A stretch of DNA of 60,009 nt from Bacteroidota bacterium. GTDB taxonomy: Bacteria > Bacteroidota > Bacteroidia > Bacteroidales > JAGONC01. Shown here one piece after another: positions 7,762 to 41,020 of this stretch. The stretch spans positions 1 through 60,009 of the forward strand of contig JAPLDP010000066.1 of the NCBI GenBank assembly GCA_026391695.1. The letters run 5' to 3'. The position numbers and the translations under genes were made by a program. The first letter of the stretch is position 1. Every line of letters starts with the position of its first letter. The notes below the pieces were generated by a model that had not been told where the DNA came from, ran no database searches, and worked only from the letters and a program-made list of their open reading frames with translations.

Positions 7762-7765
7762 AACT

Positions 7766-22825: not shown

Positions 22826-25800
22826 ATGTTAAACAAAATTTTACTTGTACTATTAATTTCATTAATTATTCCATTCAAAATGAAGGCCGAATGGTTAGCG
22901 CTGGATAAGAACAAACCATTGAGTTCGTCTCCGAAAATTACATTACTCAGAGATGATAATAAAAGCACTGTTATTAAAATTGAAATATCCGGATTCGATC
23001 TGAAGGAATTCATTTCAGAAGACAAAACATTCCAGGCTGTGGATTTGCTGTCAGAAATATTCACAACGGACCCCGGCCATCCTGAGTTGCCATATATAGC
23101 TAAAGTATTGGCTATACCCGATCAGGCTGGTATTTCAGTTGAAGTATTAGAAACAGGAAAGGTTCAAACATTCAAAGATATTTATTTGCCACCGGCGCGC
23201 TCAAGTTGGCTGGAAGGCGAACCGGAACCTCCCTATAGAGAAAATACTGATGCTTATCGATCTGATGAGGTTTACCCGAAAGAATTTGCTAAACTGGAAC
23301 CTCCGTCAATTTTTCGTGATTTTCGCATTGCCCGTGTATCCGTTTTCCCGGTTCGCTATGTTCCCGCTAAAAAGGAATTACAGGTAGTGTCCTCTATCAC
23401 GGTCCGGATAAATTACGGACATGGTGAGGTAGTGAATCCAAAAACTACCCCTAAAAAAGCAATTGCCCCTTCTTTCGCAAAACTGTATCGCAGTTTCATT
23501 TTTAATTATCAGAATGTATTGGATAAGCTTTACAATGGTAAGGAAGACGGACGGGAAGTGATGTTATGCATTATGCCGGATGAGTTTGTTGGAAGCTTTC
23601 AAATATATGCCGATTGGAAGCGTCAAAGCGGCACTGACATACACGTAACCAAATTCAGCGACATAGGGGCTAACTTTAGTAATCCGGTTATCATCAAAAA
23701 CCATATAGCCGATGCATATTACAATTGGGAGTATCCACCAACGTATGTTTTAATAGTAGGCGACGATGGCGTCTTTCCCAAAAAAATCGTAACTTATCCC
23801 GACTATTCATTCCCAAATGAAGATTATTTTGTAGAAATAGATGGCCCAGATTATTTCCCTGAAATGATGATAGGACGTTTTACCAACGAGGGTGATTACC
23901 GCATGCAGGTGATGATAAATAAATTTATGCTGTACGAAAAGAATCCTTATACTACTAGTACAGATTGGTTTAAGAAAGGAACCGTTTGTGCAAATAATTC
24001 ATATGCGTCACAAATAGAGACCAAACGGTTTACTACCAGTTTAATGTTACAGAGTGGCGGCTTTACCTCCGTGGATACCTTGATGAGTGATGGTGATTAC
24101 TGGGGATGGAACTGCACAGTGGACTTAAATGATATTATCAATGCAATCAATGAGGGGCGAAGCTATTTAAACTATCGCGGCGAAGGTTGGTACTATGGTT
24201 GGTATGCGAATTGTTACGAATTTTCTACCTCAGATGTATCCAACTTAAACAACGGTGAAAAATTTACTTTTGTGACCAGTATTGGCTGTGGCGTCGCAAT
24301 GTTTGACGCTAACGGAGGTAATTGTTTTGGCGAAGAATGGGTTGAATTAGGTTCATTAACAAATCCAAGAGGTGCCGTTGCTTTTGTTGGACCTACTTCT
24401 AACACACATACCGCATATAACAACAATATAGATAAAGGTATCTATGTAGGAATGTTTAAGGAAGGGATGGACACTCCCGGGCAGGCACTGCTGCGAGGAA
24501 AACTTTACATGTACAATATTTTCGGAAATGAATACTATGTAGAATATCATTATAAAGTTTATTGTGTTTTAGGAGATCCCAGCATTCATATTTGGAAAGA
24601 TGTTCCGTTAGAAGTGAATGTTAATTATCCACCTTCCATTCCGACCGGGAACAACCAACTGGAATTTACAATTACCTACGCTTCATCTGGAGAACCAGTT
24701 GAAAATGCGCAGGTTTGTTTAGCTGGAAATGAAATCTTTACTACTGGTATTAGCGATTCGACTGGCAAGGTAGTTATTGAAATCACACCCGAAATACAGG
24801 AAACATTGTCGGTAACCGTACGTGGGGGAAATGTGATTCCTTATCAGGGGACTTTGGATGTTATCCAACCCGTTGAAGAGCTTATTGAACCGGAGGGCGA
24901 TCCCATAATTGTCGATTTAGACGGGAATACAGATGGACTGGTAAATCCCAATGAAAATTGTACTATTACTGTTACCCTTAAGAATTGGGGAATCCAAACG
25001 GTCAGCAATATTCAGGCTACTCTTTCGTCAGCCGACACAAATTATGTACAGATAATCTCTACCAATCCGGTAAGTTTTGGTAACCTGGCTCCAGGCGATT
25101 CCTATACCGGAAATCCCTTTCAGTTTTACGTAAAACCCGCATGTCCCGTGGGCCAAATAATTCCACTACAATTACATGTTACCAGCAGTATCAGCTCCTG
25201 GGACTATATGTATAATGTGGAGGTAAAGGGATGCGAGTTAGTGGTTTATAATTTTATGGTAAACGATGCAGGTGCGCCAAATGAAAATTACAGGATGGAC
25301 CCCGGAGAGACCGTAAAGTTATTTATTTCAATTATGAATAATGGCGATGATTTTGCACCCAATGTAATGGGCATTTTGACAAGCAATGACCAGTATATCA
25401 CTATTGAAGATTCCATTGGTTCATATGGAACATTAGATATCGACAGTGTAGCGCTAAATACAGAAAATTATTTTGTGGTTAGTGTTAGCGCAGCCTGTCC
25501 GACTGAATATTTAGCTGAATATTCATTAAAGCTTTACACGCAGGATGGAAATTATCCTTATCAAACAATTCCTACTCTTACTATTCCGGTTTCTTTACCC
25601 ATACACTCCGATTATACAGGACCTGACGCTTACGGTTACTATGCTTATTCCAGCGATGATTTTTTTGATCAGACCCCTGATTATGATTGGTTTGAAATAG
25701 ATGGAATTGGTAACCAAATAAATGTACCAGGCATAAGTGATTTTACAGAAACAGTAATCTTGCCGTTTACTTTTAAATACTACGGTATTGATTATAATCA

Positions 25801-26605
25801 ACTTCGGATTAGCACGGATGGCTGGTTAGCATTTGGCAGTGGTACACAAACAGCCTCTGAAAATACTCCCCTGCCAAACAATGATAATGTAATTTGCATG
25901 GCGGCGGGTTTCTGGGATGATTTATATGATATCGAAACTGCAGAAGGTAATATTCTTTATTATTATGATAATGAAAACCACCGTTTTATAATTGAGTGGG
26001 ATAGTATCGCGCTTAATCATTTTGGGTTTGAACCTAATATAGAGGTTTTCCAGTCGATTTTATTAGATCCTGCCCATTATCCTACTTCAACCGGAGATGG
26101 CGAAATTATTTTTCAGTATGAAAAAGTTGAGGCGCCTGAAAGTTGTACAGTTGGTATAGAAAACCATACACAGGATATTGGTTTACAATATGTTTATAAT
26201 CGAGATTATGATCCTACAGCTTCTCATTTAATGAATGAATTCGCTATAAAATTCACTACCGAACAGCCTTTTGTTTCAATAATAACATCAGTTGAGGATG
26301 ACAAGGAAGGGAGTAAACTTACTCACAGTGGTTTTGCATTAGAGCAAAATCAACCTAATCCTTTTAATTCTCATACCTGGATAAACTATTCATTACCTGT
26401 AAAAAGTAATGTATCACTTAATATTTTTAACGTTAAAGGGGAGTTGGTGCGCACTCTTCAAAACGGACAGAAGCCAGCGGGAAAATATTCAGTAAAATGG
26501 AATGGGCAGAATAACGCAGGAAATCCTGTGAGTTCAGGCATCTATTTCTATCGTCTTCAGACGGAAGGTTTTACAGGAACCAGGAAAATGTTCATTTTGA
26601 GGTAA
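22826..26605 (+). CDS. Gingipain-like (C25) secreted protein with FlgD-like/T9SS C-terminus
   Basis: A 1259-residue protein: signal peptide (MLNKILLVLLISLIIPFKMKA), a C25-type propeptide (~20-215, VLAIPDQAGISVEVLE, FPVRYVPAKKELQ), a gingipain-like catalytic core (~225-590), Ig-like and CARDB-like beta domains, a nidogen-like stretch (~960-1130, FGSGTQTASENTPLPNND) and a C-terminal sorting domain with QNQPNPFN...SSGIYFYRL. The nucleophile is Cys488 in TSIGCG. The residue aligned with the gingipain His is Glu453 (NYRGEGW), so activity is uncertain. The C-terminus is of the PNPFN type usual in Cloacimonadota/KSB1-like bacteria rather than the IYPNPA type elsewhere in this window. First gene of the PGA-linked cluster, 14 bases before pgsB. 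Confidence 0.85.
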   Translation: MLNKILLVLLISLIIPFKMKAEWLALDKNKPLSSSPKITLLRDDNKSTVIKIEISGFDLKEFISEDKTFQAVDLLSEIFTTDPGHPELPYIAKVLAIPDQAGISVEVLETGKVQTFKDIYLPPARSSWLEGEPEPPYRENTDAYRSDEVYPKEFAKLEPPSIFRDFRIARVSVFPVRYVPAKKELQVVSSITVRINYGHGEVVNPKTTPKKAIAPSFAKLYRSFIFNYQNVLDKLYNGKEDGREVMLCIMPDEFVGSFQIYADWKRQSGTDIHVTKFSDIGANFSNPVIIKNHIADAYYNWEYPPTYVLIVGDDGVFPKKIVTYPDYSFPNEDYFVEIDGPDYFPEMMIGRFTNEGDYRMQVMINKFMLYEKNPYTTSTDWFKKGTVCANNSYASQIETKRFTTSLMLQSGGFTSVDTLMSDGDYWGWNCTVDLNDIINAINEGRSYLNYRGEGWYYGWYANCYEFSTSDVSNLNNGEKFTFVTSIGCGVAMFDANGGNCFGEEWVELGSLTNPRGAVAFVGPTSNTHTAYNNNIDKGIYVGMFKEGMDTPGQALLRGKLYMYNIFGNEYYVEYHYKVYCVLGDPSIHIWKDVPLEVNVNYPPSIPTGNNQLEFTITYASSGEPVENAQVCLAGNEIFTTGISDSTGKVVIEITPEIQETLSVTVRGGNVIPYQGTLDVIQPVEELIEPEGDPIIVDLDGNTDGLVNPNENCTITVTLKNWGIQTVSNIQATLSSADTNYVQIISTNPVSFGNLAPGDSYTGNPFQFYVKPACPVGQIIPLQLHVTSSISSWDYMYNVEVKGCELVVYNFMVNDAGAPNENYRMDPGETVKLFISIMNNGDDFAPNVMGILTSNDQYITIEDSIGSYGTLDIDSVALNTENYFVVSVSAACPTEYLAEYSLKLYTQDGNYPYQTIPTLTIPVSLPIHSDYTGPDAYGYYAYSSDDFFDQTPDYDWFEIDGIGNQINVPGISDFTETVILPFTFKYYGIDYNQLRISTDGWLAFGSGTQTASENTPLPNNDNVICMAAGFWDDLYDIETAEGNILYYYDNENHRFIIEWDSIALNHFGFEPNIEVFQSILLDPAHYPTSTGDGEIIFQYEKVEAPESCTVGIENHTQDIGLQYVYNRDYDPTASHLMNEFAIKFTTEQPFVSIITSVEDDKEGSKLTHSGFALEQNQPNPFNSHTWINYSLPVKSNVSLNIFNVKGELVRTLQNGQKPAGKYSVKWNGQNNAGNPVSSGIYFYRLQTEGFTGTRKMFILR

Positions 26606-26619
26606 TCTTAAACAGGACA

Positions 26620-27798
26620 ATGTATAGTTTTTACATTTTACTGGTCATAATAGTCATTGCTGTAATTGCGGGTATTATTGAGTATATCCGTCATCAGGAA
26701 CGGGTTTATTCAATTCCAATCCGGATTCATATTAATGGTACCAGGGGTAAGTCAAGCGTTACCCGTTTAATCGGAGCCGGTTTGAGGGCGGGTGGAATTT
26801 CAAACATCACCAAAGTTACCGGTACGTTTCCCCGTTTGATTATTGAAGACGGTACCGAAACTTACATCCATCGTAAATCGGCTGCCAATATCTTAGAACA
26901 ATTGTCCATAGTGAAATATGCCGCTTCGCGAAAAGTGCAGGCATTAGTAATGGAATGTATGGCTTTACAACCCCACTATCAGATGATTACTGAAGATCAT
27001 ATGATACATTCCAATATAAGTGTAATGACTAATATCAGGTTAGATCACACAGATATTATGGGGCATACCTTGCCGGAAATCGCTGAAACACTTGGGCGTA
27101 CAATTCCTAAAAATAAACACCTTTTTACTTCCGAAAATGTAATACCACAGACTCTGAAAAAAATGGCGGATAAACGAAGTACGGTTTCACATTTTATTGA
27201 TCCGCAATCAGTATCTCCTGAAGAAATGAAAGGATTCAGGCATATAGAGCATCGTGAAAATGTATCTTTAGCGTTGGCGGTTTGTCAACATCTGGGAATA
27301 GATCGCGAAACGGCATTGAAGGGCATGTACCAAGCTATTTCGGATGCCGGTGCATTAATGGCTTACAGGGTTGAGGCATTTCAAAAACGCATGGTTTTTT
27401 ACAACGCATTCGCAGCCAACGATCCTGATTCCACTTTTATAGTCTGGCAAAAAATCAGGGATGAAATCGGTTTTGAGGGCCAGCGGATAGTGCTTTTAAA
27501 CACCCGGCAAGACCGGCTTTATCGGGCTAATCAACTGGCAGAAATGACGGGCACGAAAATAAAAGATGAAACAGACTATTTGATACTGATCGGTCAATCA
27601 ACTGATGTGGTAGAAAATATGGCAATTAGTTACGGCGTACCGAAGAAAAAGATATTTAATTTAGGCTATACCACACCTGAGAAGGTTTTTGAAAAGGTAT
27701 TATCTGTAACTGAAAAAATATCCACTATTGTTGCTATAGGCAACATGGGAGGCATGGGCGCAGTAACAGCTGAGTTTTTTGAACACAGAAGTTATTAA
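26620..27798 (+). CDS. pgsB: Poly-gamma-glutamate synthase ligase subunit PgsB/CapB
   Basis: A 392-residue Mur-ligase-like ATP-dependent amide ligase that polymerises glutamate through gamma-carboxyl links. It has an N-terminal membrane helix (FYILLVIIVIAVIAGIIEYI). The P-loop INGTRGKSSVTRL is at residues ~38-50, followed by KVTGTFPRLI, VMECMALQPHYQ, NIRLDHTDIMG, NAFAANDPDST and LLNTRQDRLYR, as in CapB/PgsB. The length equals that of the Bacillus protein. It directly precedes pgsC and follows the C25-like gene, so the three are probably one transcript. No PgsA/CapA is seen in the window. Confidence 0.93.
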   Translation: MYSFYILLVIIVIAVIAGIIEYIRHQERVYSIPIRIHINGTRGKSSVTRLIGAGLRAGGISNITKVTGTFPRLIIEDGTETYIHRKSAANILEQLSIVKYAASRKVQALVMECMALQPHYQMITEDHMIHSNISVMTNIRLDHTDIMGHTLPEIAETLGRTIPKNKHLFTSENVIPQTLKKMADKRSTVSHFIDPQSVSPEEMKGFRHIEHRENVSLALAVCQHLGIDRETALKGMYQAISDAGALMAYRVEAFQKRMVFYNAFAANDPDSTFIVWQKIRDEIGFEGQRIVLLNTRQDRLYRANQLAEMTGTKIKDETDYLILIGQSTDVVENMAISYGVPKKKIFNLGYTTPEKVFEKVLSVTEKISTIVAIGNMGGMGAVTAEFFEHRSY

Positions 27799-27802
27799 AA
27801 AA

Positions 27803-28255
27803 ATGATTGAATTAGCAATTACATTAGGCTTGATTTTAAGTTTGCTTTCCTACGAAGTTTTCGGAATTGCTGCCGGAGGTATCGTTGTACCGGGTTATAT
27901 AGCGCTGCAGCTTTCGCACCCCGACCGGCTTGCAGGGACTTTGGGTGTAAGTTTACTTACTTATTTAATTATAAAAGTTTTAGGGAATTATACTTTCCTT
28001 TACGGCCGGCGTCAAATGGTGCTCAGTTTGTTGCTTGGCTGTTTATTAGCTAATTTTTCACGGTATTTCTTAACGATTAATTTAGCAAGCACCACGCTGG
28101 AACTTCAGGCAGTCGGCTGGGTAATTCCAGGATTAATTGCTCATTGGTTTGCCAAGCAGGGAGTTTTTAAAACTATAAGCGTATTATTTGTATCTTCTGT
28201 GCTGGTGCGGTTAATCCTGATATTGCTTTTCATGGGTGCGTTGTTGCCTCAATAA
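27803..28255 (+). CDS. pgsC: Poly-gamma-glutamate biosynthesis membrane protein PgsC/CapC
   Basis: A 150-residue polytopic inner-membrane protein with about five hydrophobic helices (LAITLGLILSLLSYEVFGIAAGG, GTLGVSLLTYLIIKVLG, MVLSLLLGCLLANF, VGWVIPGLIAHWF, SVLFVSSVLVRLILILLFMGALL). The AAGGIVVPGYIALQ motif and YGRRQMVLSLLLG are PgsC family features. PgsC pairs with PgsB as the membrane part of the synthase. ATG 27803, 5 bases after the pgsB stop, is preferred to the overlapping 27779. Confidence 0.92.
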   Translation: MIELAITLGLILSLLSYEVFGIAAGGIVVPGYIALQLSHPDRLAGTLGVSLLTYLIIKVLGNYTFLYGRRQMVLSLLLGCLLANFSRYFLTINLASTTLELQAVGWVIPGLIAHWFAKQGVFKTISVLFVSSVLVRLILILLFMGALLPQ

Positions 28256-28268
28256 ATTAAAAAAGTCA

Positions 28269-29426
28269 ATGTATAAATTCAGAGCAAAATCCAACATAGT
28301 TTTAGGTCTTATATCTCTTTTATCGCTATTGGCATTTATTTCGGTAGAGAATGGCAAAATGGATGTTAAGCAGGACTGGTACAACGAGAAACTTGAAGCT
28401 GCCCAACTTTCCCAATTAGCGGCCAATCGTCTGAAAAGCTACCGCCTGGAAAATGGTGTTTTCATTGATGCAATCAACGACCCGAATCAAACCGCACTGA
28501 TCGGTCAGGAATATACACTTATTACTACCGATCAAGGTTTAATTGAATCAAAGCTGTCAGCAACAAATCCAAATTTTGCAGCAGTGATTGTCCAATTATT
28601 AAAAGATGCCGGTTTAAATGAAAATGATAATGTTGCCGTAGCTGTTTCCGGATCTTTCCCCGGTTTAAATATTTCTGTATTAGCAGCCCTGGAGACTTTG
28701 AAATTAAAGCCAATAGTTATCACTTCGGTAGGTTCATCCAACTTTGGCGCAAATGATCCATACTTTACCTGGCTGGATATGGAAAATATATTATACAAAT
28801 CAAACATTTTTCACTACAAGTCAGTAGCTGCTTCTATTGGTGGAGGCAATGACCTCGGTCGTGGATTAAGTCCGGAAGGACGGGATTTGATTGTAAAAGC
28901 CATAGAAAGGAATAATGCTGAATTCATTAATGAAAAACATCTTGAAAATTGTATTGCCAGACGAATGGAAATTTATGAAAAAATTAGCCAGGGGCAACCA
29001 ATAAAAGCATTTATTAATGTTGGTGGCGGAATTGCCAGCCTGGGGAATACTATTAACGGTCAGCTTATCCCCTCCGGGCTAACGCAGCATTTGCCTATGA
29101 GTAACTTTCCGCTTCGTGGTGTTATCATTCAAATGGGTCAGAAAGGAATCCCGATTATTCATCTTCTTAATATAGACCAATTACTTGCAAAGTATGGATT
29201 ACCCATTAACCCGGTTCCGCTTCCGGAGCCAGGAGACGGTGGCATTTTTATTCAAAAAAAATATAATGTTATTATTACAGCAGTTGCAACATTCGTTTTA
29301 GTTACAGTTATTGTTTTTATTTATTTAAGTGAGCGAAAGCACCATCGTCTCGGAACAGACGTGGTTCCACTGCCTAATTATCAAAACCCCGATAAATATG
29401 ATAATGAGGACATAACGGTTTTGTAA
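28269..29426 (+). CDS. pgsW: Poly-gamma-glutamate system protein (PgsW-type)
   Basis: A 385-residue protein anchored at both ends: an N-terminal helix (SNIVLGLISLLSLLAFISV) and a C-terminal helix (VIITAVATFVLVTVIVFIYLS) followed by a basic tail. Between them lies a periplasmic domain with NVAVAVSGSFPGLNISVLA, VITSVGSSNFGANDP, ASIGGGNDLGRGLS and FINVGGGIASLG. This matches my recollection of the family that accompanies PgsB and PgsC in bacteria lacking PgsA, annotated poly-gamma-glutamate system protein (TIGR04332). The biochemical role is not established. ATG 28269, 13 bases after the pgsC stop, begins the anchor. Confidence 0.82.
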   Translation: MYKFRAKSNIVLGLISLLSLLAFISVENGKMDVKQDWYNEKLEAAQLSQLAANRLKSYRLENGVFIDAINDPNQTALIGQEYTLITTDQGLIESKLSATNPNFAAVIVQLLKDAGLNENDNVAVAVSGSFPGLNISVLAALETLKLKPIVITSVGSSNFGANDPYFTWLDMENILYKSNIFHYKSVAASIGGGNDLGRGLSPEGRDLIVKAIERNNAEFINEKHLENCIARRMEIYEKISQGQPIKAFINVGGGIASLGNTINGQLIPSGLTQHLPMSNFPLRGVIIQMGQKGIPIIHLLNIDQLLAKYGLPINPVPLPEPGDGGIFIQKKYNVIITAVATFVLVTVIVFIYLSERKHHRLGTDVVPLPNYQNPDKYDNEDITVL

Positions 29427-29484
29427 TACTGTGCTAAGAAATACTGTAAAAAAATGGTAATTTCTATAATAAAATTAGAAGCAA

Positions 29485-30396
29485 ATGAAAAAGATCCAGT
29501 TAGTTTTGTTGATTTTATTTTTGTTTTATTCCGGTATAATGGCTCAATCCGGCGGGAAATCCAAATACCTGAAACCGACAAATTTTCAAAAAAAAGTAAC
29601 AACCATTGTATCTGGTAAAACCAGGACTTATTATTCTTTAAGTACTGTGGAACCCTCAATACTAACTATCCAGGGGCCGGGAAGGTTGAAGGTAAATACC
29701 CGGGGACAGTTTAAACCCGAAGAAGGGGACTTGCTAAAATATGAAGTATTATATACGGTTGATGGTGGTGCGCAGAAAAGTGTCACAATAAGCGCTGTTA
29801 AGCGTTCAAAAATGGCCACCTATTCAAATGGGACATTAGGTGTACCAAGCCAGCTTAAAGATTTTGAAATTGAGCTTTTACGCGGCAATCATACCATTGA
29901 ATTTAAACTTAAAGAAAATATCATTGATGTTTCAGCCCGGTATGAATTTACACCTACTAAAGTAAAAAAGCAGGAGTGGTTAGTATTTTCTCCCATGCAA
30001 CCGTCAGAACCTATTGATTTAATTTCCAAGGAAACGACAATAGGTTATTATCGCTTTTCCATGGAAAAACCCTTGAAAGTCGAAATAATCGGGCCAACCG
30101 AATTGCGTGTATTAACCCGTACAGAAAATCAGTACCAGATGAAAGGGAGGATTAATTACCGTGTGCAGGTGAAGGAAAATAACATTGTAATAAATACTTA
30201 CCAGTTAAACAGCAAACTTTCTGAAATAGCTGTATATAAAGATGATAAGGCATTAATCCCCGGGACGGCTTGTGAATTTGTGATTTATGTTCCTAATGGA
30301 AAACACACTTATGAAATTTCACCTTTAGATAAAGATAAAAGCACTTTGTTAGGCCGCTTGTTACTGCCCAAAAAGGATGTAAAACTGGAAAATTAG
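29485..30396 (+). CDS. Exported protein with internally duplicated beta domain
   Basis: A 303-residue protein with signal peptide MKKIQLVLLILFLFYSGIMA followed by QSGG. Not recognised as a named family. It consists of two similar beta-rich units. Unit 1 opens TYYSLSTVEPSILTIQGPG and unit 2 opens GYYRFSMEKPLKVEIIGPT. Each continues with an L.V.TR motif, a Y.V...V segment, an AxY block and GNHTIEF/GKHTYEI near the end. The duplication is at about 45-150 and 180-285. No catalytic residues are evident. Given its place between pgsW and the beta-barrel gene it may be a periplasmic adaptor; this is inference from position only. Confidence 0.7.
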   Translation: MKKIQLVLLILFLFYSGIMAQSGGKSKYLKPTNFQKKVTTIVSGKTRTYYSLSTVEPSILTIQGPGRLKVNTRGQFKPEEGDLLKYEVLYTVDGGAQKSVTISAVKRSKMATYSNGTLGVPSQLKDFEIELLRGNHTIEFKLKENIIDVSARYEFTPTKVKKQEWLVFSPMQPSEPIDLISKETTIGYYRFSMEKPLKVEIIGPTELRVLTRTENQYQMKGRINYRVQVKENNIVINTYQLNSKLSEIAVYKDDKALIPGTACEFVIYVPNGKHTYEISPLDKDKSTLLGRLLLPKKDVKLEN

Positions 30397-30421
30397 CGTA
30401 ATTGGATATCCCGGTTTCAAT

Positions 30422-31585
30422 TTGAAAATAAAAATTAAACACGTGAAATTCATCAGATTAAATTATTATTTCTTTTCCTGTAAAACTTTTTTACTCTTTT
30501 TGATAATCATCTTTTCCCTTTCAGGTAGCAATGCTCTTGCTCAAAAAAAGAGCCCTAAAAAAGTACAGCCTTTTGAAGTAGAATTTAGTTTTGCTACTAT
30601 TTATGATAATAATATTCTGAAATATTCCGAAAAATACCTGGAAAGATTTCTCAACCATGAAGATGAAGGACGATTTCATATTGATACTTATGATGATGTG
30701 ATCTTAAATCAATCTTTAAAACTATCCTCGACCTTTCGCATTTTCGGGAATTTAAAGTCTAAAATTAATTTTGATTTCAACAATAATTTATATGTGATAA
30801 ACGGCATTAAAAACTGGTATTATGCAAGTCTTGGATTCCAGCAATATTTGACAAAACGGGCCAGTCTGAAAATTTTTTACAACTATATTCCTGATTTTTA
30901 TGTTCGCCATTTTCGCGATGATGACTGGGTGGATATTTATGGATATACTCCGGAAACATTTGTACCCTTTGGATATTCAAAAGATAATTTTGGTTTTTGG
31001 ATCCAGAACACTTTTTTTCGTGATACCCGTGTCAAATTAGCAATAGATTATTCAAAATATTATTACAATCAGCATTACACAGAATATGATTCTAAAAACT
31101 TTTCATATGCAATGAACTTATATCAGCCGGTTTATAAAAACCTTAAGCTGGAAATAGGTTATCATTTTATAACATCGGATGCCAAAGGATATGATGAACC
31201 CGATGAAAACAAAGAAAATTCTGACGATTCTGACGCATCTTATGAAGAAGATGGATTTCGTTTTGGATTTACATGGGAATTGCCCCGCTTTAATAAACTT
31301 GAACATAATTTGGATGTGGAATTGGGGTTCCAGAAACGATATTTTTCTTCAAAACATTATTTGGAATTGGATCAAGAACATGCCGGACGTGTGGATGATA
31401 ATTTTCAAATGAATGTTACCTATGCCATAAGGCTGTTTAAATCCGGGAAACTATCTGCATTTTATAACTTTTATCTTAGAGATACCAATACAAGAGCCGT
31501 AGAAAACCAGGCATATTTATCTGCTGAAAAAGACTACCATCAAAGTCAAATCGGATTAGAAATAACTTATAATTTGAAATTTTAA
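30422..31585 (+). CDS. Predicted outer-membrane beta-barrel protein
   Basis: A ~387-residue protein with a long signal segment (FFSCKTFLLFLIIIFSLSGSNALA then QKKS). The mature part alternates short amphipathic strands rich in Tyr, Phe and Asn, for example VEFSFATIYDNNILKY, LKSKINFDFNNNLYVI, WYYASLGFQQYL, VKLAIDYSKYYYN, LKLEIGYHF and GLEITYNLKF. The final strand ends in Phe, the outer-membrane insertion signature. It reads as a 14- to 18-strand barrel with acidic loops (DEPDENKENSDDSD). No named family recognised. The start is uncertain: TTG 30422 or GTG 30443 (MKFIRLNYY). Its position in the cluster makes it a candidate exit pore for the polymer. Confidence 0.75.
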   Translation: MKIKIKHVKFIRLNYYFFSCKTFLLFLIIIFSLSGSNALAQKKSPKKVQPFEVEFSFATIYDNNILKYSEKYLERFLNHEDEGRFHIDTYDDVILNQSLKLSSTFRIFGNLKSKINFDFNNNLYVINGIKNWYYASLGFQQYLTKRASLKIFYNYIPDFYVRHFRDDDWVDIYGYTPETFVPFGYSKDNFGFWIQNTFFRDTRVKLAIDYSKYYYNQHYTEYDSKNFSYAMNLYQPVYKNLKLEIGYHFITSDAKGYDEPDENKENSDDSDASYEEDGFRFGFTWELPRFNKLEHNLDVELGFQKRYFSSKHYLELDQEHAGRVDDNFQMNVTYAIRLFKSGKLSAFYNFYLRDTNTRAVENQAYLSAEKDYHQSQIGLEITYNLKF

Positions 31586-31647
31586 AAATTAACCGGGCAT
31601 TTTTACCTATCTCAACGGTAATTTATTAAAAAGAAAATTTGAAGAAT

Positions 31648-32655
31648 ATGAATATGAAAAAATTGTTTATCTGGCTACTGTCCGGCTTGTTACTTTTAAT
31701 GGGTTGCGGAAAACCAATTGACCCCGAATCATTGAAGCCAGGTGATGGTGGTTATAAAATTGTCAAACGATTTCCCACATCCGGGTATGCCCAGGATGTA
31801 TTGAAGAAAGACAGCTTGCTGTATATAGCGCAAGGTGAAGGTGGTTTGATAATTGTCAATGTTGCTGATCCGAAAAACCCACAAACTGTTTCAGTAACCA
31901 CTGAGGACGTGCGGGGTTATTCCACTAAAATCGCCATGAAAGATAGTGTGGTATATTTAGCCGCCGGTTCATTTGGTGTAACTGTTCTCGATGTTGGAGA
32001 TCCGGTTGTACCAATTGTTACCGTGTCGAATCTGAATATGAAACCGGCACGAAATTTTCGCATTTTGGGAAATTTTATGTTTACTGCAATAAGTGAACAG
32101 GGTGTCAGTATTTCTGAGATTAGTTATCCCACCCAACCTGATATCCGTGGCGGAATAAGTACAACAGGGTATGCTTATGGTTTAACAACCACTGCTGACA
32201 GTAACTATTTATTGGTGGCTTGTGGCGAAATGGGGTTGTCCATATTCGATATATCCGATTTTCAGGAAGGATTCGGAGTTTACCCAACTGTTGGCTGGTG
32301 TGATACACCAGGCTGTGCAGAAGCAATTACGGTTTTAGATAATGAATCAGTTGCCTTTATGGCTTGTGGTACCGCCGGACTGCAAATAATTGATTATTCC
32401 GATACCTCCAATGTCTATATTGTAGGTAGTTACAATAGTGGCGGATATGCCAAAGATCTGTTGTACAATAACCAACGGATTTATCTAACTACGGAAACCA
32501 GGGGCTTGCAAATTATCGATGTTTCCGATGTTACCGAACCATATTTAATAGGTTTGCTTGAAACAGCATACGCACTCGGCCTGGATATGGATGAAAAGTA
32601 TATTTATGTGGCAGATGAGGATGAAGGATTAATCATTATCTCCATCCCTGATTAA
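31648..32655 (+). CDS. LVIVD-repeat beta-propeller lipoprotein
   Basis: A ~335-residue lipoprotein with signal MNMKKLFIWLLSGLLLLMGC. The mature part is a series of ~42-residue blades each containing a variant of LxIxDVSDPxxP: GLIIVNVADPKNP, GVTVLDVGDPVVP, GVSISEISYPTQP, GLSIFDISDF, GLQIIDYSDTSN, GLQIIDVSDVTEP. This is the LVIVD propeller, a binding scaffold without known catalysis. ATG 31648 or 31654 is preferred over TTG 31639. It probably sits in the outer membrane beside the barrel encoded just upstream. Confidence 0.85.
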   Translation: MNMKKLFIWLLSGLLLLMGCGKPIDPESLKPGDGGYKIVKRFPTSGYAQDVLKKDSLLYIAQGEGGLIIVNVADPKNPQTVSVTTEDVRGYSTKIAMKDSVVYLAAGSFGVTVLDVGDPVVPIVTVSNLNMKPARNFRILGNFMFTAISEQGVSISEISYPTQPDIRGGISTTGYAYGLTTTADSNYLLVACGEMGLSIFDISDFQEGFGVYPTVGWCDTPGCAEAITVLDNESVAFMACGTAGLQIIDYSDTSNVYIVGSYNSGGYAKDLLYNNQRIYLTTETRGLQIIDVSDVTEPYLIGLLETAYALGLDMDEKYIYVADEDEGLIIISIPD

Positions 32656-32659
32656 AAAA

Positions 32660-33772
32660 ATGAGCAAACCACTTGAAGAAAAGCAGCGCTTTCAGTTTAT
32701 CGACCAGTTTCGCGGTTTGGTTGTCATCCTCATGCTTGTCGACCATAGTTCCTACTACTTCAATTCGATTTGGGAACAAATCGACCCGCTTGACCCACTC
32801 TTCGACACTTGGGGCCAATTCGCCCTCCGATATGTGGGATATCTTTGCGCCCCCGGTTTTCTGATGATTTCCGGGGCAATGGTCTGGTGGTCTTATCACC
32901 AGCGGATTAAAAAGGGAACTCCAGACTGGACCGCCCGCTGGCAGCTAATCCAGCGAGGTCTTTTTCTCATTATTGTGCAGATAACATGGGTGAACTCATC
33001 ATGGGGTGGTTTCAGCGAATTTAAGCCCGGGCATATTGGGATCATTGCCTGCATCGGCATTTCCATGATTCTACTGACTCTGATTGTAAAATTGCGTTGG
33101 CAACTGCAACTCTTCATTGGGCTTATCATCTTAGTTATCCACCCGCTTCTGCTCAAGATTCCCTACGATCCGGAAGTCACCTGGGCCCGGGTTCTGATGC
33201 AAACATTCATCGATGCAGGTGAATTTAACAAATACCCGGTTTTGCCCTGGTTTGCCCTGGCTACGTTAGGATCTGTTATGGCGACCGGATGGCTCCTCGT
33301 CTGGAAGACAGATAAAAAGCGAATTTATTGGAGTATCGGAATTGCGGCTGTAGTGTTACTCATGGCGATAGTGGTGCGGATGGCTCGCGGATACGGCAAT
33401 ATATTTCCTTTTTCCGACTTCGGTTCCTATTCATTTTTTTTCGACCAGAAGTATCCGCCAAGCCTCTACCTGAACCTCTGGTTCTTCGCGTTGGTGGTTT
33501 TTGGGATTAGTGGATTCATCGCGTTAGGTAAAGTGGCTCCGAAACTCCTGGTGGTTTTCAGCATCCCGGGTAAGGTGCCACTCTTTTTCTACTGTATGCA
33601 CATTGCAATTATGGGGGTATTTGTGAAACGTTTGGGACTTTTTTACCGCGAGGGTGGTGTACTTGCTTCACTGATCGGATTGGCTGTTATGCTGGTGGTG
33701 ATGCTCCCACTCTGCAAATGGTTTTATGGTGTAAAAAGCCGGAGTAAGAATTTTATCATCCGAATGATATGA
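32660..33772 (+). CDS. DUF1624/acyltransferase-like multi-pass membrane protein
   Basis: A 370-residue protein with about ten hydrophobic helices. The opening FQFIDQFRGLVVILMLVDHSSYYF has the RG...D-H arrangement at the N-terminus of heparan-alpha-glucosaminide N-acetyltransferase-like (DUF1624) and related acyltransferase-3 proteins. APGFLMISGAMVWW, PWFALATLGSVMATGW and PLFFYCMHIAIMG are also family-like. It likely transfers an acyl group to an extracytoplasmic substrate, which could be a glycan or the cluster's polymer. It starts 4 bases after the lipoprotein stop. Its DNA is visibly richer in G+C than the preceding genes, suggesting a separate origin. Confidence 0.75.
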   Translation: MSKPLEEKQRFQFIDQFRGLVVILMLVDHSSYYFNSIWEQIDPLDPLFDTWGQFALRYVGYLCAPGFLMISGAMVWWSYHQRIKKGTPDWTARWQLIQRGLFLIIVQITWVNSSWGGFSEFKPGHIGIIACIGISMILLTLIVKLRWQLQLFIGLIILVIHPLLLKIPYDPEVTWARVLMQTFIDAGEFNKYPVLPWFALATLGSVMATGWLLVWKTDKKRIYWSIGIAAVVLLMAIVVRMARGYGNIFPFSDFGSYSFFFDQKYPPSLYLNLWFFALVVFGISGFIALGKVAPKLLVVFSIPGKVPLFFYCMHIAIMGVFVKRLGLFYREGGVLASLIGLAVMLVVMLPLCKWFYGVKSRSKNFIIRMI

Positions 33773-33784
33773 CGGAGGAGTGGA

Positions 33785-35077
33785 ATGGGAATAAAAAAGA
33801 TGAAACTATTTACGTCAACAATGTTCCTGATAACCTTCCTGCTGCTAGTAGTGACAGGATGTTCGAGTCGTATTGATGTGCCCGTTACGGTTGCGGATTC
33901 GACCATTGTCTATCCTGCAAAAAAAGCCGATGGCATCTCAGCAAAGATCACACTATGCAGGAAGATAAGCAAGAAGACCGGCAATCGAATTGATGCAGGA
34001 ACGGTTTTCACTATCAAGGAAAAAGAGAGTATCTATGCTTTCGTAGACTTAGAGAATTGTTTTGTACACGGTGTCCGTACACTGATGTTCCACCTCGACT
34101 GGATTGATACGAGCGGCAGGTCATTTTACCGAAAGCGGATCGATCTTTCTCCCGACGATACGACAACGACGCTAAATAGTTCCATCTCGATCTCTCCCGA
34201 TAAACGACAACCAGGAGAATACCTCTTACGGGTATACCTTTTCCGGGAACTAATTGCAGAGAAGAAATTTGAACTCCGTCCGGAATCCCAGGTCACTCCT
34301 TCTCAGGTTGAAGAAATCAATGCAAAGATTATACTTTGCAGAAATGTAGATAAAAAAACAGGTAGGCGAATTAGAGTGGATTCGGTTTTCACAATCCGGG
34401 AAAAAGAGAGTATTTATGCTTTCGTAGACTTTGAGAATCGTTTCGTGCACAGCGACAGGGAACTGATGTTCCACATCGACTGGATTGATACGAGCGGCAC
34501 GTCTTTTTACCAGAAGGGGATCAATCTTTCCCCCGGTGATTCCTCTTCGACGATAAATAGTTCCATCTCTATCTCTCCCAATAAACGACAACCAGGAGAA
34601 TACTTCTTCAAGATATACCTTTTTGACGAACTAATTGCGGAAAAAAAATTTGAACTCCGTCCGGAATCCCAAGTCACTCCTTCTCATGTTGAAGGAATCC
34701 AGGCAAGGATTATACTCTGCAGAAATGTAGATAAAGAAACAGGTAAGCGAACTGGAGTGGATTCAGTATTCACAATCAAGGAAAAAGAGAAGATTCGCGC
34801 TTTTATAGACTTGGTGAATCGTCGTGTCTATGGCGACCGGGAACTGATTTTACTTCTCGACTGGATCGGACCTAATGGCAGGTCTTTTTATCGGAAACAG
34901 GTCGATCTTTCCCCCGGTGATTCTTCTTCGACGATAAATAGTTCCATCTCGATCTCTCCCGATAAACGACAACCAGGAGAATACCTCTTAAGGATATACC
35001 TTTATGACGAACTGATCGGAGAGAAAAAATTTGAACTCCGTTCGGAATCCCAAGTCACTCCTTCAAAGGATGAATGA
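33785..35077 (+). CDS. Lipoprotein with three tandem 127-residue repeats
   Basis: A 430-residue lipoprotein with signal MKLFTSTMFLITFLLLVVTGC (ATG 33800 inside the longer frame) and lipid Cys26. Residues 51-177, 178-304 and 305-430 are three near-copies of one unit: (I/N)AKI.LCR...KKTG.R, then FTI.EKE.IYAFVD, LDWI...GRSFY, SPGDSSSTINSSISISPDK, RQPGEYLLRIYL and EKKFELRPESQVTPS. The unit resembles an Ig-like/macroglobulin-type beta domain; no named family is assigned. The last gene of the co-directional cluster. The repeats are so alike that unit number may vary between strains. Confidence 0.8.
   Translation: MGIKKMKLFTSTMFLITFLLLVVTGCSSRIDVPVTVADSTIVYPAKKADGISAKITLCRKISKKTGNRIDAGTVFTIKEKESIYAFVDLENCFVHGVRTLMFHLDWIDTSGRSFYRKRIDLSPDDTTTTLNSSISISPDKRQPGEYLLRVYLFRELIAEKKFELRPESQVTPSQVEEINAKIILCRNVDKKTGRRIRVDSVFTIREKESIYAFVDFENRFVHSDRELMFHIDWIDTSGTSFYQKGINLSPGDSSSTINSSISISPNKRQPGEYFFKIYLFDELIAEKKFELRPESQVTPSHVEGIQARIILCRNVDKETGKRTGVDSVFTIKEKEKIRAFIDLVNRRVYGDRELILLLDWIGPNGRSFYRKQVDLSPGDSSSTINSSISISPDKRQPGEYLLRIYLYDELIGEKKFELRSESQVTPSKDE
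33935..35074 (+). repeat. Three tandem 381-bp coding repeats
   Basis: Units at 33935-34315, 34316-34696 and 34697-35074 inside the lipoprotein gene keep frame and length (127 codons). The 3' halves (around 34160, 34540 and 34920) are almost identical at DNA level, which indicates recent duplication or gene conversion. Confidence 0.9.
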
Positions 35078-35287: not shown

Positions 35288-35958
35288 ATGAGGCACAACT
35301 TTTTATTTACAGTTTTCATTTTCGCAAGCATACATTTGTTTTCACAGAACCATTACAGTCAAAGCTATTTTAATAATGGTTTAGATTTTTATAAGAAGGA
35401 GAACTATCAGGAGGCTGTCAGATTTTTCACAGTTGCTATTACGAGTACACCTGACTATTATGAAGCCTATCTTTATCGTGGCGGTGCCAACATGAATTTG
35501 GGCGACCTTGATCTGGCCATCAATGATTTCAACAAAGCCATTGAAATTCAGCCCGACAGTGCAGTTCCTTATTACAGCCGCGGACAAGTCAATAGATATA
35601 AGGAGAATTAGAATATCGCACTTACAGATTTTAATAAAGCCCTGGAACTCAAACCACAGATTGCAGACTCTTATTCTACTATTGCAGGGGTGATTCTTTT
35701 TTACATACCGGAAATTATGAACTGGCGATTAAAGATTTGAATAAAGCCATAGAATTAAAACCGGATGATGCCGAAAATTATTACGCTATGGCATGTCTAT
35801 ATTCATTGATGAATCAGGAGCAAGAGGCGTTAACGTATCTTGAGCTGACCCTGCAAAAGGCAAATTATATGGAATACAGGATCACTAATGAAAAAGAATT
35901 TGACAATATCAGGAATTCCCAGGGATATAAAGATCTGATGGCTAAATACAAGAAATAG
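35288..35958 (+). pseudogene. Decayed TPR-repeat exported protein gene
   Basis: The gene begins with a signal peptide (MRHNFLFTVFIFASIHLFS then QN) and TPR units (YFNNGLDFYKKENYQEAVRFF, ALYRGG..MNLGDLDLAINDFNKAIEIQPD). A TAG at 35609-35611 stops the frame. Reading through it gives further TPR sequence (IALTDFNKALELKP). At about 35685-35695 a one-base shift moves the frame, after which GNYELAIKDLNKAIELKPDD and a C-terminal tail run to 35958. Two independent lesions make a functional product of full length (~223 residues) unlikely. The intact parent would be a secreted TPR scaffold. Confidence 0.85.
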
Positions 35959-35980: not shown

Positions 35981-36019
35981 GAAAAAAGAAAAAGCCCTGT
36001 GGTTTCACACCAGGGCTTT
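35981..36019 (-). terminator. Terminator hairpin beside att-like copy A
   Basis: Arms aaagccctg (35991-35999) and cagggcttt (36011-36019) form a 9-bp stem. On the minus strand it is followed by TTTTTCTTTTTT (the a-rich run 35981-35993 on the plus strand). It sits directly 3' of the tRNA-end copy at 36023. Confidence 0.7.
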
Positions 36020-36022
36020 GTT

Positions 36023-36042
36023 GTAGCGGGGATAGAATTAAC
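36023..36042. repeat. tRNA-fMet 3'-end direct repeat, copy A (att-like)
   Basis: GTAGCGGGGATAG followed by AATTAAC matches the 3' end of the initiator tRNA gene (41240-41256) with one difference. It marks the far boundary of the island. Confidence 0.75.
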
Positions 36043-36160
36043 TACGTTTTGATTCACGATATTGCAAAAGTAGTTGATTATATTGAGATTCTAAATACTA
36101 AAAACTTTGAAAATCTGTTATAGAGTCCAAATGATCAAAATCAATCAAACAAAAAAAAAG

Positions 36161-36190
36161 TTGGTTGATTAAAAATTTTGTTTAAATTTG
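36161..36190 (+). promoter_or_regulatory. Promoter of the three-gene island module
   Basis: TTG (36161-36163), a 19-base spacer and TAAATTTG (36183-36190) match the Bacteroidota -33/-7 promoter. Predicted start of transcription near 36196 leaves a leader of ~110 bases before ATG 36307. Confidence 0.6.
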
Positions 36191-36306
36191 ACCTTAACAG
36201 TAGAACTCGTTTCATTGAGCAAAGAAAAAGGGTTCTTTGTATAAGATACTTACTTCCATTCAACCTATACAAAATGTAAAAGGATTACTTTAAAAAAAAT
36301 AGAGAA

Positions 36307-36972
36307 ATGACATCATATAGAATACCAGATGACGTTAAAAAAGGATTTACAATACTGTTAAAATCTCCACAAAAGAAAATTGATTCTTTGATTTCTGAGT
36401 TAGCTAAAATTCCTAAAGGTTTATTACCTTCAGAGATTACCGAATATATCTCGAAGAAAAAAGTCTTTTCCAAAGATGATCCTTCATATATAGTGAAAGT
36501 ATTATTAAGCCTTTATACGTTAAAAGAAAGTGAGACAAAACCATTATCAGAAATAGTTATTAATATACAGAGTGCACTGAATGAAGCTGAAGATATTACC
36601 CCGAAGCCCAATGAAAATTTTATTAATAATTTTATTCAACTTCTTTCACTGAAAACAATCGGATTAACTTGTAAGGCATTTAGTCTTCTGATGGAATATG
36701 AAAAAACTTATGTCGAATCAAGAATTATCACCGATATCAGACCTGTCTTTACTGACGATTTAGAGGAAAATATTGACATGGGGGTTATTGTTCATAATTT
36801 AAGGATAGAGTATCACAAAGGGCAATCAACTCACGAGGAGATTTTTATTGCATTAGACAGTGATGACTTACGTGAACTTAAGGAACGGGTCATAAGAGCT
36901 GAAAAAAAAGAAAAAGCAATCAGGACTTATTTTGCTGAAAAAATTTCTTTCTTGGATACTTCAAAAGAATAA
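36307..36972 (+). CDS. Hypothetical protein, gene 1 of the island module
   Basis: A 221-residue soluble protein, not recognised. Features: an N-terminal helical region (IPDDVKKGFTILLKSPQKKIDSLISELAKIP), a central region with SYIVKVLLSLYTLKESETKPLSEIVINIQSAL, a beta section (RPVFTDDLEENIDMGVIVHNLRIEYHKG) and a C-terminal coiled-coil-like helix (DLRELKERVIRAEKKEKAIRTYF). No signal peptide or membrane helix. It begins a tight run of three genes (19- and 2-base gaps) behind a good promoter. The C-terminal part recalls short proteins that report on protein or nucleic acid partners, but no function is assigned. Confidence 0.65.
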   Translation: MTSYRIPDDVKKGFTILLKSPQKKIDSLISELAKIPKGLLPSEITEYISKKKVFSKDDPSYIVKVLLSLYTLKESETKPLSEIVINIQSALNEAEDITPKPNENFINNFIQLLSLKTIGLTCKAFSLLMEYEKTYVESRIITDIRPVFTDDLEENIDMGVIVHNLRIEYHKGQSTHEEIFIALDSDDLRELKERVIRAEKKEKAIRTYFAEKISFLDTSKE

Positions 36973-36991
36973 CACACTATAGATTAACACC

Positions 36992-37582
36992 ATGCCAGCA
37001 TTATTAATAAAAGAACGAGAACTTTTAAGTCCTACTTCGTATCTTACAGGTGCTTCATGCAATCGAAAACACTCATGTAATTATAAAATAAATAAAGAGT
37101 GGAGAAATACAGAGGAAATAGATGATTATATTCATTTATGGACAAAAAAGTCTGGCACTATCAAAGTAGCCATAACAAAAAAGACTTCTATTGAAGTTAA
37201 AACCATATTTCATGAATTGATAGAAAAAATTCAGAGTTCTAAATTCATCCTTGAATTAAAAGATAATTGGGATGATGAAGATAGTAAAGGGTATTCTGAA
37301 AAAACATATGTAAATGCAATTAATTTTTTTAAACGTTACGCACAATGGATTTGGGATGAAAGAGGCGTAATAATTGATACTCCCAATATTTTACCCAGTA
37401 ATGAAGGAAGTATTGATCTTTTCTGGAGTAAAATGGAATACGATCTTCTAATCAACATACCCGCATACCCTAATAATGTTGCAAGATTTTATGGTGATAA
37501 CAAAAAAGATTCCAAGATTGAAGGCGAATTCCCATTAAACTCTTACAACCAAGGCATCTTTTTATCACTTTTACAAAGTTAA
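36992..37582 (+). CDS. Hypothetical protein with L-x-NWDD motif, gene 2 of the island module
   Basis: A 196-residue protein. Its central part, LKDNWDDEDSKGYSEKTY...AINFFKRY and then PNILPSNEGSIDLFW, follows the pattern leucine-x-x-WDG, an N-helix, P.V.P...G.I.LEW. I recall this from uncharacterised proteins in accessory regions of many bacteria. A C-terminal beta segment (DLLINIPAYPNNVARFYGDN) completes that pattern. Two Cys near the N-terminus (ASCNRKHSC) are specific to this copy. Function unknown; the family memory is not database-checked. Confidence 0.65.
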   Translation: MPALLIKERELLSPTSYLTGASCNRKHSCNYKINKEWRNTEEIDDYIHLWTKKSGTIKVAITKKTSIEVKTIFHELIEKIQSSKFILELKDNWDDEDSKGYSEKTYVNAINFFKRYAQWIWDERGVIIDTPNILPSNEGSIDLFWSKMEYDLLINIPAYPNNVARFYGDNKKDSKIEGEFPLNSYNQGIFLSLLQS

Positions 37583-37584
37583 TC

Positions 37585-37965
37585 ATGAATTCAGAACATA
37601 AGTACCTAATAGAGGAAATTCCAAATACTGATTTCCTCTATCAAAGAGTACATAAGAATCATAACATTAACGGTATCTTAGCTTTGGGATTGGTTTTTAA
37701 AAATCATGGCGCCGGTATGTCAACGGATTGGTCTAAATACTCAACACCAGAATTAACCAAGAAAAGAGCTGCATACTATTATAAAAACCCAGAGAACTAT
37801 GGAGTAATAAATATGAAAGTAGAGGATGTTCGAAGTATTGAAAGTCAGGTTGTTAAGCATACACCCATTAATGAAAATCAATCTCACACCGATGTTATTG
37901 GAAAAAAATCTCCAAAAGAACAAGTCCTATTCAATAGAATATATTCTTGGTCTATAAAGCCGTAA
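37585..37965 (+). CDS. Hypothetical protein with HxPxxxNxSH motif, gene 3 of the island module
   Basis: A 126-residue protein starting 2 bases after gene 2. It ends with VKHTPINENQSHTDVIGKKS and LFNRIYSWSIKP, matching the pattern H-x-P-x3-N-x-SH-x2-(V/I)-x-G that I recall in small proteins encoded next to WDG-motif proteins. The conserved His, Asn and Ser-His residues suggest a binding or catalytic site. The N-terminal part (TDFLYQRVHKNHNINGILALGLVF, STDWSKYSTPE) is compatible with a compact alpha/beta fold. No function is established. Confidence 0.65.
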   Translation: MNSEHKYLIEEIPNTDFLYQRVHKNHNINGILALGLVFKNHGAGMSTDWSKYSTPELTKKRAAYYYKNPENYGVINMKVEDVRSIESQVVKHTPINENQSHTDVIGKKSPKEQVLFNRIYSWSIKP

Positions 37966-38404
37966 TTATAATAGAATAATTCAAATCCATTTCATTATCT
38001 AGTTGATCCTTCTCGGGAGAGCTTGACAACAAAACCCTTTGCTCACTACGTTCGCTTTGTCTTTTTCTTTTTCCCTTCATCCTAGCAAGCAAGCTTGCAG
38101 TTTTGTGAAAAAAGAAAAAGCCATTACAGGAGCAAAAAAATCAGAGTCATGCAGAGAATAGAGAGATTAGAGGCCAGAGAACACTATTATGAAAGGATGA
38201 GATGGATGATCCTTCCAAAATCAATCCAAGAAGCATTAAGGTAGTATCAATAGTCACATTCATTACAGATGAGGTGGTCAGATTGTATTTTGGTGATTGA
38301 TTTATCTTTCAGATATGCAATTAATATTAGATTATTTGCCTTTTCTATCTATAATTTGTAACTTCACGTCATTAAATTTAAAAATCTAATTATTGGAGGT
38401 AATT
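37966..38404. other. Intergenic stretch with diverged island repeat
   Basis: About 440 bases without a supported gene. It contains the repeat at 38003-38122 and a 31-codon frame (38149-38244) that was not accepted. Confidence 0.55.
38003..38122. repeat. Diverged copy of the tRNA-flank repeat (internal)
   Basis: Opens ttgatcct...gggag.gctt.acaac and continues gctcact.cgttcgc, a T/C-rich run, an inverted repeat (aagcaagcttgc) and gtgaaaaaagaaaaagcc (38105-38122). It parallels 41090-41211, and the last 18 bases are identical to 35979-35996. The tRNA-end core itself is missing here. Confidence 0.65.
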
Positions 38405-38872: not shown

Positions 38873-38929
38873 CAAGACCATAATAAAAATGACTGGAATT
38901 TTTCAGTTTTAGTTTTTAATGTTACTATA

Positions 38930-38960
38930 TTGTCCATGCAAATCTATTTCATTAACTTTG
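38930..38960 (+). promoter_or_regulatory. Promoter of the solo nuclease gene
   Basis: TTG (38930-38932), a 20-base spacer and TAACTTTG (38953-38960) fit the Bacteroidota consensus. Predicted transcript start near 38966, 16 bases before the ATG. Confidence 0.6.
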
Positions 38961-38981
38961 GGATAATAAATAAATAATACT

Positions 38982-40058: not shown

Positions 40059-40124
40059 ATATTATTTCACCATAGGATTTAAACAGCCTATACATCTATT
40101 TAATAATTATTAAACTTTAAAAAA

Positions 40125-40382: not shown

Positions 40383-40386
40383 AACC

Positions 40387-40896: not shown

Positions 40897-41020
40897 AAAA
40901 ATAATTAGCACATAGATGTTGCTATTATCTACAAATGTTTTGTTAAACTAAAAGAACTCAATGTTATTAAAGTATAACTCTTAAGGTAAAAAAGCATTCA
41001 TTGTTACTATTTTGTTACCC

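Follow-up and report, generated by a model that had tools for sequence, protein, structure and literature searches.

The window, meaning the whole stretch of DNA analysed, is one whole contig of 60,009 bases from a Bacteroidota genome of 3.63 Mb that is 97% complete. Nine tightly packed open reading frames (ORFs), all on the + strand, fill positions 22826-35077 and encode the poly-gamma-glutamate (PGA) synthase proteins PgsB and PgsC, the protein PgsW, and a set of secreted, exported and membrane proteins, two of which are called Dup and the barrel below. In order, the genes are:

22826..26605, + strand: C25-like secreted protein, with N-terminal hydrophobic signal, C25 propeptide, C25 domain and a FlgD-like/type A sorting tail of the type IX secretion system (T9SS)
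26620..27798, + strand: PgsB, PGA synthase ligase subunit (TIGR04012), with a single N-terminal hydrophobic segment
27779..28255, + strand: PgsC membrane subunit (TIGR04011), ORF start TTG at 27779
28236..29426, + strand: PgsW (TIGR04332), two membrane helices around an alpha/beta domain predicted to be periplasmic
29485..30396, + strand: Dup, exported, one domain in two copies, proposed periplasmic polymer adaptor
30422..31585, + strand: the barrel, a predicted 14-strand outer-membrane beta-barrel with a lysine-rich N-terminal tail, proposed exit pore
31639..32655, + strand: LVIVD beta-propeller lipoprotein, with lipobox LLLMGC (from sequence) and four LVIVD stretches
32660..33772, + strand: HGSNAT_cat membrane acyltransferase (Pfam), accessory
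33785..35077, + strand: three-repeat lipoprotein, accessory

Later starts are likely for PgsC (about 27803), PgsW (about 28269) and the LVIVD protein (31648 or 31654), as judged from relatives, by alignment for PgsW and from the ORF sequence for the other two. With the revised starts, the gaps between genes are about 4 to 68 nucleotides (nt).

PgsB matched TIGR04012 at 7e-124 (413.4 bits, cut-off 222.7), the adjoining PgsC matched TIGR04011 at 4e-35 (120.9 bits, cut-off 96.45) and PgsW matched TIGR04332 at 1.8e-102 (342.7 bits, cut-off 100), all above the curated cut-offs; synthesis of the polymer by PgsB and PgsC would be expected from what is known of their families. The two halves of Dup align at an hhalign probability of 99.6, and each copy has an invariant Arg (R73 and R212). 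The barrel carries a predicted export signal and was modelled with AlphaFold2 as a closed, even-numbered barrel of 14 strands (mean predicted local distance difference test score, pLDDT, 88.8). Neither Dup nor the barrel of the window was assigned to a Pfam or NCBIfam family, and the barrel call rests on the model; among 38 barrel members, Pfam porin or barrel families gave weak matches in at most three. The putative acyltransferase matched HGSNAT_cat at 1.6e-15 (57.7 bits, cut-off 22). The last lipoprotein holds three copies of a unit at 381 nt spacing and gave weak family matches only (Pfam/NCBIfam). A first-pass annotation of this DNA had described nine close-set, co-directional genes, with PgsB, PgsC and PgsW beside a duplicated-domain exported protein, a beta-barrel, a propeller lipoprotein, a membrane acyltransferase and a repeat lipoprotein, and these descriptions were borne out.

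Sigma-70-like sites (47 found, 45.2 expected) and the TTTG/TANNTTTG promoter pattern (2 found, 3.5 expected) were not above shuffled sequence, so no operon claim was built on them. Terminator-like sites were mildly above chance (17 versus 10.8, s.d. 4.1), many of them within genes, and were not used.

Conserved core of the block

Conservation was followed with iterated profiles of the nine proteins in 41 PgsW-similar loci, 12 regions of Bacteroidota genomes and the window (locus numbers are prefixed L, genome numbers G). The 41 loci were found by similarity to the window PgsW and are biased towards close kin, the genome searches less so. Phylum labels of loci are those of the depositors' record titles; the relatives of the window PgsW come mostly from records titled Bacteroidales or Bacteroidetes metagenome-assembled genomes. 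For loci that reach far enough past PgsW, and with the window counted, Dup was found at 38 of 43, the barrel at 34 of 39 and the LVIVD protein at 23 of 31; the acyltransferase (17/29) and the three-repeat lipoprotein (12/25) were seen in Bacteroidota loci only. In Bacteroidota loci, as in L051, L053 and L054 (titled Neomarinimicrobiota), the LVIVD gene comes after that of the barrel. A C25 gene lies upstream at 31 of 43 loci by count, and at 28 of 43 when the non-orthologues of L051, L060 and L061 are subtracted; of these 28, L053 and L054 are divergent. The order PgsB-PgsC-PgsW-Dup-barrel is seen repeatedly in Bacteroidota, and also in records with the titles Melioribacter, Cloacimonadota, Calditrichota and Neomarinimicrobiota. 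These five genes are the core; the C25, LVIVD, acyltransferase and repeat-lipoprotein genes vary by lineage.

Gene order itself is not constant. The genes stay together in L056 and L057, where C25 lies downstream and an HGSNAT homologue stands upstream of PgsB; in L058 the acyltransferase and three-repeat lipoprotein are reversed, and L091 reads C25-barrel-LVIVD-PgsB-PgsC-PgsW-Dup, followed by a CapA-domain gene on the opposite strand. Survival of the association through such reordering argues for joint function. The first-pass annotation had drawn its functional grouping from gene order; with the co-occurrence check now run, the Dup and barrel counts and the rearranged loci make the grouping more than an accident of order. 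As one fixed set of nine, it fails on the accessory counts and on further loci, described below, that lack Dup and barrel.

In 395 Bacteroidota genomes, where few candidates (four or five) per genome passed from the first look to scoring, TIGR04332 was found in 14 (13 above cut-off) and PgsB above its cut-off in 12, all TIGR04332-positive; 237 had some PgsB match, the remainder being below cut-off. Dup was found in seven genomes, all TIGR04332-positive and with Dup adjoining PgsW, and strong barrel matches occurred in the same seven; six further barrel matches, at E 2.9e-4 to 7.0e-4, look like chance. Among 149 genomes of the order, 11 had TIGR04332 and nine of these had Dup at the locus. Ten further loci came from this search, three of them identical to L027, L041 and L016, leaving seven that were new. 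L087, L088 and L089 have every gene from PgsB through the three-repeat lipoprotein, with C25 as a single ORF in L089, split over two ORFs in L088 and lost to the contig end in L087; the other four are L090-L093.

As a control, 26 flanking genes of the window (13 on each side, 8.9-50.4 kb, non-overlapping ORFs of about 120 amino acids (aa) or more) were searched by profile and had no homologue at any of 63 other PgsW loci, where the nine do have homologues; as many of the fetched stretches extend no more than 10 kb from PgsW, this control is fair for the nearest neighbours. The nine-gene block is a conserved unit with sharp edges. After removal of fragments, the alignments kept 38 of 40 barrel rows and 43 of 45 Dup rows, and for PgsW 44 of 54. 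Distances among PgsW, Dup and the barrel correlate (0.84 and 0.89), as would be expected from co-inheritance alone, and the envelope genes might then be neighbours by common inheritance that do not act with PgsB, PgsC and PgsW. This is very improbable in view of the association across records of several phyla and across rearrangements, the lack of Dup in the sampled PgsW-negative genomes and the lack of any such linkage for the 26 flanking genes.

Directly after the block, a TPR ORF of 107 aa (35288-35700) ends at an in-frame TAG; TPR-like sequence seems to continue past it in the same frame, which would indicate a truncated gene or an assembly error. It gave no tblastn match at 1e-4 across 53 loci. 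Further on, 36000-41312 is a stretch of low GC content (0.31-0.35) with several ORFs of unknown kind, possibly an insertion, and includes a type I restriction HSDR_N ORF (38982-40058) and a tRNA-Met (41240-41312); none of its genes was found at other PgsW loci by profile search. The block is broken by small ORFs that lie between PgsC, PgsW and Dup in L043, L045 and L048. The one at L043:1590-1967 encodes a 23S rRNA-intervening-sequence-type protein, and those of L045 and L048 are similar by eye.

Envelope components and a possible export route

The block is probably a system for making and secreting PGA that is adapted to cells with two membranes. Synthesis and passage across the inner membrane would fall to PgsB and PgsC, and PgsW would be their membrane-anchored partner, its domain lying in the periplasm. 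Dup would receive or chaperone the polyanion there, and the 14-strand barrel would release it across the outer membrane; this export step is suggested by the association, the predicted compartments and the fold. The LVIVD lipoprotein and the T9SS-tailed C25-like protein may hold or process polymer at or outside the outer membrane, and the acyltransferase and three-repeat lipoprotein could be lineage-specific extras; these accessory roles are put forward with less weight than export.

The PgsW model (mean pLDDT 88.8) places helices at residues 20-39 and 345-371 around the alpha/beta domain. A positive flank precedes helix 1 in 40 of 44 rows and follows helix 2 in 27 of 44, which favours a periplasmic domain. 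No enzyme class is assigned to PgsW, since its best VIA Z of 7.8 falls among values usual for common arrangements.

Nearest to the barrel among solved folds are CymA (Z 24.4, 292 residues, 3.8 A) and OmpG (Z about 21), then CymD/FadL-type channels, at about 8-10% identity to CymA and OmpG; the polymer exporters BcsC and PgaA (4y25) are among the Foldseek matches. Topology was taken from strand order, with both ends periplasmic and the long loops outside. On this assignment, the outer-side loops are conserved more than the strands (2.42 versus 1.84 bits, p 8e-10), which suggests a fixed ligand or partner. Loops better conserved than strands are unusual for a general porin. Dup carries a net charge of +5 or more in 34 of 43 rows, the window Dup being basic, and a lysine-rich N-terminal tail is present in 24 of 38 barrels. 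In favour of the reading, too, Cloacimonadota, under whose name records hold this type of cluster, are reported to lie in a dye-stained matrix interpreted as PGA (PMC13082233).

Several observations weigh against this reading. The fold gives no direction of transport, CymA and OmpG being diffusion pores. Dup has no solved relative by profile against solved-structure sequences, PgsW has no confident fold match (none by Foldseek at E 0.001 or better), and profiles of Dup, barrel and PgsW against those sequences gave nothing better than E 0.37. Dup is not basic in any of the six Cloacimonadota/Calditrichota-type rows, nor in three of five Neomarinimicrobiota/FCB rows, and the lysine tail of the barrel is absent where Dup is non-basic and also in L056, L057, L060 and L061; with these counts, basic charge was rejected as a universal mark of the pair. 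All seven Dup- and barrel-positive genomes of the 395 had fed the profiles, and only the absence elsewhere is an independent result. L090 has PgsB, PgsC, PgsW and Dup without this barrel. Lastly, PgsC-PgsW occurs without Dup or barrel in L062-L067 and L093, where gamma-glutamyltransferase (GGT) is linked to the locus, and in L092, with the reservation that L066 ends 285 bases past PgsW and cannot show their absence. It follows from these loci and L090 that Dup and barrel are not needed by every Bacteroidota PgsW system. Directly upstream of PgsB in L090, an exported-looking protein of 282 aa (L090:12360-13208) has no Pfam match and is possibly a replacement barrel.

GGT lies directly beside PgsB in L062-L067 and one ORF away in L093; PgsB is thus also present in the GGT-linked loci, the exception being L092, whose stretch begins within the block. 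In L064 the neighbours by Pfam are DctM (at threshold), an AstE-like protein, DUF6305 and GGT. AstE-like proteins also occur in L092 and L093, and the rest of the GGT-linked neighbourhoods was judged by eye. At L060 and L061, which carry the Dup-barrel core, GGT lies some 4 kb upstream of PgsB. Within the fetched stretches, GGT was found in L060-L067 and L093, none of which has a true C25 orthologue. Mutual exclusion of C25 and GGT was considered and dropped: GGT is present somewhere in 17 of 24 PgsW genomes, at least five of them with a C25 orthologue (G055, G251, G294, G132, G537), and linkage alone differs. No match to PF01019, the GGT family, was obtained in the 97% complete genome of the window.

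The same evidence bears on an alternative in which the block makes PGA and the barrel, serving for uptake or general diffusion, would recover its fragments with the surface proteins for storage and reuse instead of exporting the chain. The diffusion channels nearest in fold would suit it, and the GGT, AstE-like and DctM-like genes at some other PgsW loci look catabolic. Yet no barrel was seen where GGT lies about one gene or less from PgsB, L060 and L061 being the two with a barrel and a more distant GGT; the window's own genome lacks GGT; and the barrel goes with the synthase, an association not required of an uptake pore. We consider recovery quite unlikely and export the better reading of the barrel.

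Surface proteins and CapA domains

The C25-like protein matched Peptidase_C25 at 1.2e-59 together with the C25 propeptide (Pfam), and its tail matched the T9SS sorting family TIGR04183 (35.2 bits, cut-off 23). The same genome encodes two full-length PorU-like sortases (1400.5 and 1303 bits). For the active site we take H211 and C244 as the catalytic residues of RgpB, a numbering that agrees with the alignment. In the window protein, His211 is replaced by Glu (residue 453) and Cys244 is matched by Cys488. Among 27 orthologue rows from 26 loci, the His site holds Glu in 26 and Gln in one (L059), and the Cys is kept in all; with L088, L089 and L091 added, the counts are Glu 29/30, Gln 1/30 and Cys 30/30, omitting rows that match by the tail only or do not cover the site. 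The His is also missing from the two divergent C25 proteins that L053 and L054 have upstream of PgsB, which are outside the 30. Eight other C25-like proteins of the same genome kept the His in six cases (both PorU-like proteins and L079 by motif, L081 and two in L083 by alignment) and not in two (L080, L082). Joint retention of Cys and Glu suggests an altered but maintained site and not decay. Without the catalytic His, the protein is not to be assumed a protease: its earlier description as a C25-like secreted protein stands for the C25 domain, propeptide and T9SS tail. A part as polymer acceptor or transferase is speculation. In L022, two His-less C25 proteins lie in tandem upstream of PgsB (587-4348 and 4511-8269).

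A scan of ten ORFs (the block plus the TPR ORF behind it) gave no CapA domain (PGA_cap). A single PGA_cap protein is encoded elsewhere in the genome of the window, on contig C43; by eye it looks like a lipoprotein, and its gene lies beside a DUF3160 gene and a SusD gene. The first-pass claim of a cluster with no PgsA/CapA thus holds for the block and not for the genome. In four relatives (L038, L056, L057, L091), PGA_cap proteins adjoin the block, in L038 between C25 and PgsB. All four have a T9SS C-terminal sorting domain above the Pfam threshold and a PKD domain (below threshold in the L057 gene):

L038:3995-7006, PGA_cap, PKD domain and T9SS tail
L094:185-3187, the same (gene of L056)
L095:908-3928, the same (gene of L057)
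L091:11705-14743, the same

These tails predict that in the four diderms the CapA-type domain would act, alongside PgsW, on the outer side of the outer membrane. PGA_cap was present somewhere in 11 of 14 PgsW genomes versus 7 of 14 control genomes, so its presence elsewhere in a genome says little and a block-side CapA says more. The idea that PgsW replaces CapA was dropped on these counts and on the four block-side genes, and the earlier proposal that PgsW marks a PgsA-less variant is not supported in that simple form.

With the C25-like protein and, in four relatives, the CapA-domain protein as T9SS cargo by their tails, with two full-length PorU-like sortases in the window's own genome, and with an acyltransferase and two lipoproteins within the same block, the product might instead be a poly-gamma-glutamyl decoration on a surface molecule (a T9SS-exported protein or a lipid-linked glycan) and not a free or capsular polymer. 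The Cloacimonadota- and Calditrichota-titled loci that keep the core, several of them cut short, gave no C25 orthologue, acyltransferase or three-repeat lipoprotein; this makes decoration of such a protein unlikely as the core function, and we hold the alternative as a whole to be improbable.

Synthesis with secretion across two membranes, our preferred reading, can be extended into a more specific and improbable proposal, that of a dedicated machine spanning the envelope for an anionic polypeptide. Dup and the barrel would form a new outer-membrane route of PGA export, and the polymer would be finished outside the cell, where the Cys-Glu C25 variant, surface-sent by T9SS (in four relatives with a CapA domain), would join or hold it. 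The job of the C25 variant would then resemble that of GGT (CapD type) in Bacillus, and GGT itself may do that job in the Dup-less loci with PgsB, PgsC and PgsW.

Comparison with known systems

As in the pgsBCAE/capBCADE operons of Bacillus, PgsB and PgsC score above equivalog cut-offs and a membrane-anchored third partner is predicted to face outward. PgsA of Bacillus faces outward. Unlike the Bacillus operons, the block has neither CapA nor GGT (CapD type) and has PgsW instead; it adds Dup, the barrel, T9SS cargo and lipoproteins, and its host has two membranes. The C25-like protein resembles the gingipain/PorU C25 family in propeptide, C25 domain, T9SS tail and catalytic Cys, and differs in the change of His to Glu or Gln.

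The capA gene of Francisella is entered in the available part of PMC5362203 as 'Hypothetical poly-gamma-glutamate system protein', the wording of TIGR04332, and capBCA is treated in that of PMC4688374 as a three-gene locus whose role in capsule is doubted. It is likewise a capBC locus of a diderm, likened here by description, and Dup and barrel go unmentioned in those excerpts. For Cloacimonadota, the accessible text of PMC13082233 describes a PGA-like matrix by 4',6-diamidino-2-phenylindole staining and fluorescence in situ hybridization and a three-gene operon of CapB, CapC and CapA (PgsF), again with no mention there of Dup or barrel. The Cloacimonadota-titled loci of the present set, from species other than those of that report, have PgsB-PgsC-PgsW-Dup-barrel where the contig allows, which suggests that both proteins are worth seeking in the Cloacimonadota of PMC13082233.

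According to the part available of the capsule survey PMC5542703, PGA systems occur in most phyla, and in diderms passage across the outer membrane takes at least one additional protein; its PGA model, as given there, has only Bacillus-type Cap proteins, without an outer-membrane part. Among the matches listed in open-licence literature, judged by title and opening of the abstract, there was no PGA outer-membrane exporter, nor the name PgsW for the TIGR04332 family, a name that is taken from the first-pass annotation. Dup and the barrel are two concrete candidates for the outer-membrane step of PGA in diderms, and they accompany the synthase in records from several phyla. Also found are PgsW clusters that have the Dup-barrel pair and others that lack it, a CapA domain on T9SS cargo in four relatives and a C25 lineage with a changed active site.

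The barrel resembles CymA and OmpG in fold and strand number, and is unlike them in its conserved loops on the inferred outer side. With PgaA-, BcsC- and PelB-type secretion the block shares an inner-membrane synthase and a dedicated barrel, and BcsC, PgaA and PelBC are among the fold matches. Unlike PgaA or BcsC, its barrel has 14 strands with no TPR match or helical repeat part, and the polymer is a polypeptide; the periplasmic place of those repeats may be filled here by the soluble two-repeat protein, Dup.

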